A stretch of DNA of 49,540 bases, taken from assembly GCA_013166835.1 (NCBI GenBank), contig JABLTI010000010.1, forward strand, positions 1-49,540, read 5' to 3'. Positions 45,670 through 48,398 of the stretch are shown piece after piece. A program made the translations under genes and the position numbers. A model generated the notes under the pieces. It had not been told where the DNA came from. It saw only the letters and a list, made by a program, of their open reading frames with translations, and did not search any database. This DNA is from Promethearchaeati archaeon. Its GTDB lineage: Archaea > Asgardarchaeota > Heimdallarchaeia > JABLTI01. The first letter of the stretch is position 1; each line of letters opens with the position of its first letter.

Positions 45670-45710
45670 AAGAAAAAGGAAAAAATAGAATGAACACTAA
45701 GGTTCATTCT
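45670..45710 (-). terminator. Intrinsic terminator of the DapA-Fae operon, stop codon in its loop
   Basis: On the minus strand AGAATGAAC pairs with GTTCATTCT (plus 45687-45695 and 45702-45710), 9 perfect pairs. The TAG stop (45697-45699) is in the 6-nt loop, and ATTTTTTCCTTTTTCTT follows. Confidence 0.75.
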
Positions 45711-47103
45711 TTAATGGATGTCGAGTTGGTGTCTCAAAAAGATAGTCAAGATCAGGTCGATTCTCAATTGCTTTCCTAATTGCCATAACTGTTGCTTTTC
45801 GATTGTTTACAAAGACTCTGTTCCTAGAAACAGCTGTTGGGTGGACAAAAACAGAGGCAATAATAACCAAATCATTGACATACTTCTCAGGAATGAATCC
45901 ATCTTGCACACACGTTGTCACAGCTTTCGCTACACCAGCTTGTACTGGACCAAAAACCATAGATGCTTGTCTCAAGTTTCTAATGAAAACTTTGGGAACA
46001 AGTAGAGTATCTGGTTTCACTGCTTCGTTTGTTTCATGTAATGCTAAAAGCGGTTCATGCCCCTCTATTGTTGAGGGATCATCTTTTACAAGTGCAAGAG
46101 CTCTAGCAAATGCTGCACCAACTGGACCATCTTTTGGACCGATTAAAAGATCAACATGAGCCATTTCTGGCCGATCGCCACCAAAGAATCCTTCACCAAC
46201 AAGTAGTTTCTTTTGCAGAATAGTTTCAGCTGTGACATCAATTTGTCCGAATCTTTCCTCGATTTTCTTTGGATCTTCTGGTAAAGCAATAATTGGTTTT
46301 ACTTCGATCTTTCCTAATCTTTCTAGTTCAAGTCTTAATTCAGATCGTAACTCATGACTAATGCTTCCACCAATTTCAAGAGGTAATCGTGGTTTCCGAA
46401 CCTTTACTCCCATCATATTGAGTGCTTCTTTAGTTCCTGCTCCACCAGTTTTCACAATAATTCGAGTTATTTTGTGGATTTCCATCTCTGCCTTTCGTGC
46501 TTCATCTAGTTTTCCAGCTTCAACTAATTTCTTGATCTTCACCCAATAATCTCCAATGAAATTAGCAGATGCTAAGATACAACCATCAACACCAGCAGCA
46601 AGCGCTGGAAAAACAATTTCATCCCAGCCACAAAGAATCTTGAATTCAGGAGCTACAGGTTTTACTCTCTCGAGTATTTCCATTAAATAAGCCATATTTC
46701 CCCAAGAACATTTCATTCCGACGATATTCTCATGTTCTACTGCCAAGTCTTCTACTACCATTCTTGGGAGGACAACATCTGTGAGTGCAGGTAATTGATA
46801 TAAAAGAATTGGAAAATCAACTTTATCTGCGATTTCTGAATAATGTTTGAATAACCCTCGTTGTGTTGGTTTCATATAGTATGGAGTTACAATAAGTCCT
46901 GCATCAGCACCAACATCCATCGCATGTTTAGTCATTGCTATCGTTCGTTTTGTACCACTTGTTCCAGTTCCTGCCATAACATCTACTTTTCCATTAGCTT
47001 CTTCAACTGCGATTTCAATAATTTTCTTTTGTTCATCCCAGAATAATGATGAAAATTCACCAGTGGATCCAGCTGGAACTATTCCTCTAAATTTTTTTGC
47101 CAT
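45697..47103 (-). CDS. Fusion of DapA-family aldolase and formaldehyde-activating enzyme (Fae)
   Basis: The 468-residue protein has two clear parts. Residues 1 to about 255 are a DapA/NAL-type class I aldolase: AGSTGEFSSL, DVMAGTGTSGTKRTI, LIVTPYYMKPTQ, LLYQLPALTD (Y102) and the Schiff-base lysine in GMKCSWG (K131). It lacks about 35 N-terminal residues (first strand and helix of the barrel), and the DHDPS arginine after YxxP is not seen (YQLPALTD). After a linker of about 45 residues, residues 301-447 match Fae, which condenses formaldehyde with tetrahydromethanopterin: FFGGDRPEMAHVDLLIG with the catalytic His (H316), GPVGAAFARALA, EGHEPLLALHE, PDTLLVPKV and VFGPVQAGVAKAV. Archaeal Fae is usually fused to hexulose-phosphate synthase; this pairing is unusual. 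The partner gene lies 14 nt upstream. Confidence 0.85.
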   Translation of the reverse strand: MAKKFRGIVPAGSTGEFSSLFWDEQKKIIEIAVEEANGKVDVMAGTGTSGTKRTIAMTKHAMDVGADAGLIVTPYYMKPTQRGLFKHYSEIADKVDFPILLYQLPALTDVVLPRMVVEDLAVEHENIVGMKCSWGNMAYLMEILERVKPVAPEFKILCGWDEIVFPALAAGVDGCILASANFIGDYWVKIKKLVEAGKLDEARKAEMEIHKITRIIVKTGGAGTKEALNMMGVKVRKPRLPLEIGGSISHELRSELRLELERLGKIEVKPIIALPEDPKKIEERFGQIDVTAETILQKKLLVGEGFFGGDRPEMAHVDLLIGPKDGPVGAAFARALALVKDDPSTIEGHEPLLALHETNEAVKPDTLLVPKVFIRNLRQASMVFGPVQAGVAKAVTTCVQDGFIPEKYVNDLVIIASVFVHPTAVSRNRVFVNNRKATVMAIRKAIENRPDLDYLFETPTRHPLKNEP

Positions 47104-47117
47104 AGAAATTTCAACTC

Positions 47118-48398
47118 TTATTTGTGTAATTTCCTTGCTGGAATAACTGATAATCCATTCTTTGTCAAGGCATCAGCTGTAAAGTTTACAGCATCATGTT
47201 TGTCCAAAAAGTTAAGTGTCATACCATCCCAGTCGCCAGAGTCAATCACTTCTTGCTTATCTCGGAAGTAATCCAAAATATCTGATTGATGCTCTCGAGT
47301 TTCTTCGACAGCTTGTTTTCCACCCTCATGCTTAGCGCTAACGTTTTTCACTGTTTTAGCTAATTCAATTAGCTCATCAGTACGATCATATGGTTGTCTT
47401 ACAATACTCTTCCATGTTTCTGTGATATGATGTTCAAATCGAATAATGTCTTCAAAACCCCAATCTTTTCTGAACTCAGCTGCAAGTTCCATAGTTTCAT
47501 TGTTCACTGAATTCGAAAGATTAAAGCCAATTAATGGTGTGCTTCCGTCTTCTCGACTAAGGAGTTTAGCGGTCATTATGGTCCATAAACAAGCATATGG
47601 ATTATCATTCCCCATAAAAACAGAGATTTTGAATTCCATATCTACACCTAGTTTATGAAGCATATATCCAAGAATTACTGTTCCCGGATTGATATTGAGA
47701 ACTTGTTTTACACCATATTTTGTATAATAGTAAAGGAATTCATCAATCCATTTGAGAGCAAAATCATTTGGTTGTCCAACTCCACCAAAATAACCTGTTA
47801 TTGTTGCTGGTCCGCCAAGATGAACATTGGCTGGGGCACCATCTGCTCCAGGGGAAGTTCCTTTAGTGTCAAGAGTTTCAACGTAAGAAGCACCAATTAA
47901 CTGCATAGCAGCAGCTATTCCGAGTATATCGCCATCTTCTTCTTGTTCTTTCATTTTCCTAACTCTAATGTATCTTCCTGGCATCAAATCTTGTTTTTCA
48001 ATTGCTCGTTTCGCTTCCGCGATAAAGAATGGGAAATACTGACAAGCACTAATTTCAAGTGTTACAGCTAATGATTCATCGAATTTTACCTTATCAGCAT
48101 CTGCTCCAAGGATTTTCTTTCGATAATCAGCAATGCTAATGAAAGCGTCATTATCTCGCTGTTCAACTAACCAATTAAGATCCTTAACGTATTCAGGTTT
48201 CTTCTTTTCCAATCTAGCTAGAAGATTGTCTATTTTTCCAGCTTCAATTGCTTTCTTGTTTATTTCATCCACTCCGCCGTATTTTTCCACGATGGCAAGC
48301 AGATTATCTATCACAGGATTATTTTCTTTCACGAAAAAATCATTGATAGCTTTGAGCTTATCCTCTGATATTAGTAATTTCTTCTTAATATCGGTCAA
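47118..48398 (-). CDS. Unrecognised 426-residue protein, operon partner of DapA-Fae
   Basis: I do not recognise this family. The N-terminal about 110 residues are helical. From about residue 110 alternating strands and helices with G/H-rich turns (HLGGPATITGYFGG, LNINPGTVILGYML, NDNPYACLW, IRFEHHITETW) suggest an alpha/beta barrel enzyme. Paired His and Asn/Asp residues could form an active site, but no cofactor motif (B12 DxHxxG, FeS CxxxCxxC, Rossmann GxGxxG) is seen. The TTG start at 48398 has AGGGTG 7 nt upstream. The 14-nt gap to the downstream DapA-Fae gene indicates a common function, perhaps in forming or using the aldolase substrate. Confidence 0.65.
   Translation of the reverse strand: MTDIKKKLLISEDKLKAINDFFVKENNPVIDNLLAIVEKYGGVDEINKKAIEAGKIDNLLARLEKKKPEYVKDLNWLVEQRDNDAFISIADYRKKILGADADKVKFDESLAVTLEISACQYFPFFIAEAKRAIEKQDLMPGRYIRVRKMKEQEEDGDILGIAAAMQLIGASYVETLDTKGTSPGADGAPANVHLGGPATITGYFGGVGQPNDFALKWIDEFLYYYTKYGVKQVLNINPGTVILGYMLHKLGVDMEFKISVFMGNDNPYACLWTIMTAKLLSREDGSTPLIGFNLSNSVNNETMELAAEFRKDWGFEDIIRFEHHITETWKSIVRQPYDRTDELIELAKTVKNVSAKHEGGKQAVEETREHQSDILDYFRDKQEVIDSGDWDGMTLNFLDKHDAVNFTADALTKNGLSVIPARKLHK

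Follow-up and report, generated by a model that had tools for sequence, protein, structure and literature searches.

A DapA-type aldolase joined to Fae in Asgard archaea, with a possible role in homoserine formation

Within the window (the whole 49,540-nucleotide stretch of DNA analyzed here), a single open frame on the minus strand encodes a protein of 468 aa in which both PF00701 and PF08714 were detected by Pfam search. The features of this locus are as follows.

47118..48398, minus strand: orphan gene of 426 aa that belongs to no known family, separated by a 14-bp gap from the fusion, which it directly precedes
45697..47103, minus strand: DapA–Fae fusion gene, 468 aa here and 504–511 aa in close relatives
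46336..47091, minus strand: DapA-family (PF00701) aldolase domain, residues 5–256, without the first ~35 profile positions
47085..47088, minus strand: junction of the 111-bp in-frame gap versus relatives (37 residues missing), from comparison with the relatives
47056..47070, minus strand: GSTGE motif, residues 12–16
46798..46800, minus strand: Tyr102 of YxxP (Tyr139 in the full-length relative L004)
46711..46713, minus strand: Schiff-base Lys131 (Lys168 in L004)
45724..46200, minus strand: Fae (PF08714) domain, residues 302–460
46156..46158, minus strand: His316 of the Fae AHxDL motif (His353 in L004)

The initial annotation had read this gene as a DapA-type aldolase fused to formaldehyde-activating enzyme (Fae), and the profile searches bear this out. 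The aldolase half matched PF00701 with E = 2.8e-61 (207 bits, cut-off 22) and the Fae half matched PF08714 with E = 1e-48 (165.8 bits, cut-off 27), while in NCBIfam the protein reached 162.5 bits to TIGR03126 (Fae; cut-off 118). The Schiff-base lysine, the tyrosine of YxxP and the GSTGE motif were all present as described. The DHDPS arginine after YxxP, which had likewise been noted as missing, is replaced by Leu in the window copy (YQLPALTD) and is found in 0 of 31 aligned fusions. No equivalog name for the aldolase half was reached in NCBIfam: the NanA, KDG aldolase and HpaI-NOT-DapA models require 281 to 397 bits and gave 78 to 156, and TIGR00674 (4-hydroxy-tetrahydrodipicolinate synthase, DapA) gave 180.5 bits against an equivalog cut-off of 206, with the window copy being N-terminally short. 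A DHDPS (lysine) function was rejected on the basis of the arginine missing from all aligned fusions and the TIGR00674 score below cut-off. NF009833 (Fae–Hps) scored 130 bits, below its cut-off of 274, with the Fae part alone matched and without the Hps domain. The fusion shares the barrel, the Schiff-base Lys, the Tyr of YxxP and G(S/T)TGE with the DHDPS/NAL superfamily (PF00701: DapA, NanA, KDG aldolase and YagE), whose members use pyruvate as the nucleophile; it differs from them in reaching no equivalog cut-off, in lacking the DHDPS Arg and in being joined to Fae.

The barrel is incomplete in the window copy, as its PF00701 match begins at profile position 36. Six close relatives in GTDB genomes (Candidatus Heimdallarchaeota), 86–97% identical, encode the longer proteins of 504–511 aa; it is through these relatives that the window's family, and this family alone, is tied to Heimdallarchaeota. 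The relatives contain 37 extra residues between MAKKFR and GIVPAGSTGE (PGGVSPALVTPFTKKDEVDEEAYRKLIRFVIDDLGVT in L004), and alignment of the window DNA with theirs revealed a clean 111-bp in-frame gap where these residues stand. Judging by the rest of the family, the start of the barrel lies in the missing segment. In a phylum-wide search with a fusion profile, the match in the window genome started at profile position 35 and those in the other genus members at positions 1–3; the window genome was the only one of its genus with a late start, and other N-terminally short matches were contig-end cuts or fragments. A search of the window's own assembly found no second fusion copy. Because 37 residues present in the full-length relatives are missing, the window copy is either an assembly error or a damaged gene, and it is probably non-functional if the 111-bp deletion is real. 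In both cases, the family rather than the window copy is what matters.

A search for Fae across 228 Asgard genomes showed that many of them encode another Fae, in frames about 500 aa long. The loci around these long-frame matches were extracted and then checked with Fae and DapA profiles, which identified DapA–Fae in nearly all long frames, the exception being a 570-aa frame without DapA (L051). Using a profile of 31 fusions, with the Asgard genomes as the search scope, PF00701 and PF08714 were found in one protein in 101 of 228 genomes (a minority represented by contig-end fragments) and in 25 of 62 genera. Close relatives keep the two halves fused; the separately encoded halves that, according to the initial annotation, would have refuted its reading did not appear. 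None of the plasmid records covered 80% of the fusion query, and in the literature library searched no paper mentioned fusion together with both Fae and dihydrodipicolinate synthase.

In most fusion genomes, Fae–Hps is the first Fae, and the window genome also encodes a normal Fae–Hps (520 bits to PRK13307). Like the fusion, Fae–Hps (PRK13307, NF009833) joins Fae to a formaldehyde-handling aldolase in H4MPT archaea, an arrangement thought to avoid free formaldehyde (PMC5241800). The fusion differs in that its aldolase is a Schiff-base DapA-type barrel located N-terminal to Fae and in that a branch separates its Fae domain from that of Fae–Hps. A tree of Fae domains, M. extorquens Fae included, placed 44 fusion rows on one side of one branch (SH-aLRT 94) and 33 Fae–Hps rows on one side of another (SH-aLRT 97), which is compatible with the fusion having arisen once.

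Active-site residues were compared among the 31 aligned fusions. The Tyr of YxxP and GxDE are invariant (31/31 each) and the Schiff-base Lys is kept in 30/31, so its absence from an alignment, the other result that the initial annotation had named as refuting, was not encountered. The Fae His of AHxDL is kept in 26/31 and is lost only in upstream members of tandem pairs. Such pairs, consisting of two DapA–Fae genes, occur at L082, L083, L084, L085, L086 and L089 (families f28 and f9), and the Fae losses are complementary between the copies in all five aligned pairs. The upstream copy has lost the His and the C-terminal tail and kept EPNxxVRP and RQA, while the downstream copy has kept the His and the tail and lost EPN; in L082, the Schiff-base Lys is missing from the downstream copy as well. 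Fae forms oligomers whose active sites lie between subunits, and with this arrangement the complementary losses would fit an obligate heteromer. In f28 (L082, L083, L084, L085 and L089), two long genes of about 816 and 570–890 aa as called lie upstream of the tandem pair, and the two that were scanned had no Pfam match. Structure predictions, made from alignments of 6–7 close sequences only, gave a mean pLDDT of 46.7 for a full-length relative and 35.8 for the 426-aa orphan, both too low for structural conclusions.

The 426-aa orphan is found directly upstream of the fusion in families f1, f18 and f19, and its family (A2) is highly conserved and present in 126 of 228 Asgard genomes. It also occurs in three families of the same class that lack Fae (f2, f3 and f6), in which the next gene encodes a class I/II aminotransferase. 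At eight of the loci read in these three families, the aminotransferase is followed by homoserine dehydrogenase (HSD) and aldehyde:ferredoxin oxidoreductase (AFOR); the one HSD of the orphan loci that was scanned matched PRK06270 with 425 bits, above the cut-off of 373. In f28, genes for threonine synthase and for the S component of an ECF transporter are found near the orphan. A different orphan (A3 family, about 315 aa) adjoins the fusion in f8, f9, f11 and f23 (L039, L040, L045, L046 and L086), and in f8 and f23 the fusion is near a glycerate-kinase-type gene and phosphoglycerate mutase. Searches of Pfam, NCBIfam and PDB, profile searches included, returned nothing credible as a relative of either orphan family, and hhalign gave no convincing relation between A2 and A3 (probability 4%).

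We propose, with a probability of roughly 45%, that the fusion is a bifunctional enzyme of H4MPT-using Asgards that makes 4-hydroxy-2-oxobutyrate (HOB), and then homoserine, standing in for HSD. The Fae domain would exchange formaldehyde with methylene-H4MPT, and the DapA domain would form a Schiff base with pyruvate on the conserved Lys and add formaldehyde to it to give HOB. Transamination of HOB would yield homoserine, for threonine and perhaps methionine, and it is through this step that the fusion would stand in for HSD. We infer the substrate, the direction of the reaction, the passing of formaldehyde inside the protein and the acting aminotransferase.

The homoserine hypothesis was formed after the aminotransferase and HSD neighborhood had been seen and before HSD and the fusion were counted. 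A fusion that supplies HOB for homoserine would be expected to take the place of HSD. Among the 228 genomes, 20 contained both the fusion and HSD (PF00742), 81 the fusion only, 81 HSD only and 46 neither; the two are therefore largely mutually exclusive (odds ratio 0.14, p = 2e-11), although these counts treat related genomes as separate, so that the p-values overstate the number of independent events behind the exclusion. Among genomes with a completeness of at least 90%, the corresponding numbers were 14, 44, 32 and 7 (odds ratio 0.07), and at the genus level they were 8, 17, 30 and 4 (p = 1.7e-5). Restricting the comparison to Mch-positive genomes gave an odds ratio of 0.17 (p = 1e-6). Family f18 is split, with one genome having the fusion only and three HSD only. 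Family f19 comprises 15 genomes with both, 23 with the fusion only, 15 with HSD only and 12 with neither, and exclusion within it reaches significance in near-complete genomes (p = 0.009) but not across all f19 genomes (p = 0.22). As a control, aspartate-semialdehyde dehydrogenase (ASD, TIGR00978) showed no overall association with the fusion (odds ratio 1.04). Among Mch-positive genomes, those with the fusion had ASD less often (odds ratio 0.33); the HSD signal may thus partly reflect loss of the aspartate branch as a whole.

Of the 101 fusion genomes, 97 contain Mch, which marks C1 chemistry on H4MPT. In the window genome, whose assembly is about 85% complete, HSD and ASD were undetected, and threonine synthase is present (PRK08197, 557 bits, cut-off 303). 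The threonine synthase model TIGR00260 had no match at 1e-40 in some near-complete fusion-only genomes, a cut too strict to prove absence. Taken together, the exclusion of HSD, the homoserine and threonine neighbors and the near-complete co-occurrence with Mch lend the HOB idea partial independent genomic support. Counting against it are the 20 genomes carrying both the fusion and HSD, the GxDE motif, which is common to sugar-acid aldolases, and the kinase and mutase neighbors in f8 and f23.

Conversion of pyruvate and formaldehyde to HOB and homoserine works in E. coli with promiscuous enzymes, and HOB was called non-native there (PMC8879981). The synthetic homoserine cycle of E. coli, comprising a HOB aldolase and a HOB aminotransferase, resembles our proposal in leading from pyruvate and formaldehyde via HOB and homoserine to threonine (PMC8879981). 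That cycle is engineered, relies on promiscuous enzymes (RhmA as the aldolase) and uses free formaldehyde (PMC8879981), whereas the proposed Asgard route would be natural and would use a Schiff-base aldolase and H4MPT-bound formaldehyde. Somewhat more doubtful than the enzymatic role itself is the broader claim that a natural formaldehyde-dependent route, from methylene-H4MPT and pyruvate via HOB to homoserine on one fused enzyme, replaces HSD and the preceding steps in a large part of the Asgards, with the complementary Fae decay in one lineage's tandem pair suggesting an obligate heteromer. If true, this would be the natural counterpart of a reaction regarded until now as synthetic and an unrecognized homoserine/threonine route from a one-carbon unit in the Asgards, the closest archaeal kin of eukaryotes. 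It would also explain the absence of HSD from many Asgard genomes and make a fused formaldehyde-condensing aldolase available for study.

The same chemistry could run catabolically, which we consider unlikely. The aldolase would then cleave HOB that transamination had formed from homoserine, releasing pyruvate and formaldehyde; Fae would capture the toxic formaldehyde as methylene-H4MPT, feeding C1 metabolism. Aldol reactions of this type are reversible, which counts in favor of this direction. So does the presence of Fae–Hps in the fusion genomes, as well as the parallel with Fae–Hps itself, whose fused Fae is thought to capture the formaldehyde released by Hps (PMC5241800). However, one would not expect an enzyme that degrades homoserine to be mutually exclusive with HSD, and the window genome has no detectable HSD or ASD with which to make homoserine.

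We give still less credence to HOB being a shared metabolite that is made directly by the fusion or, in Fae-less relatives, from homoserine by HSD and the adjacent aminotransferase, and is consumed by the orphan enzyme. The orphan lies directly upstream of either the fusion or the aminotransferase and HSD cluster, so both could supply its substrate, but many HSD genomes lack the orphan, it has no recognizable enzyme family, and in f28 its neighbor is threonine synthase and not the fusion. The poorest candidate is a sugar-acid aldolase (2-keto-3-deoxy acid type) with an accessory Fae, acting on an aldehyde larger than formaldehyde and fused for co-expression or scaffolding: the conserved GxDE, the YNIP...TG motif that many copies have in common with other DapA-fold aldolases and the f8/f23 neighbors are consistent with it, but no score reaches the equivalog cut-off of KDG aldolase, NanA or HpaI-NOT-DapA, the catalytic His of Fae is retained in the fusion, which is nearly confined to genomes with Mch, and the exclusion with HSD would be left unexplained.

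In G087 (f18), a genome without a detected fusion, a stand-alone divergent DapA-like protein of 348 aa (L111:4278–5321, PF00701 E = 4e-15) is encoded directly upstream of the 426-aa orphan. In G122 (f19), the Fae half of the fusion at L088 is preceded by a stretch of N instead of a DapA half, owing to a deletion, to masking or to a gap in the scaffold; the orphan was not found in this genome. G000 and its genus (f1) have two Mch matches per genome, with four in G000 and one in most other Asgards. At L102–L105, L115, L116, L120 and L121 (f3 and f6), HSD adjoins AFOR in lineages with almost no ASD; as a speculation, the AFOR of f3 and f6 might supply the semialdehyde from aspartate.
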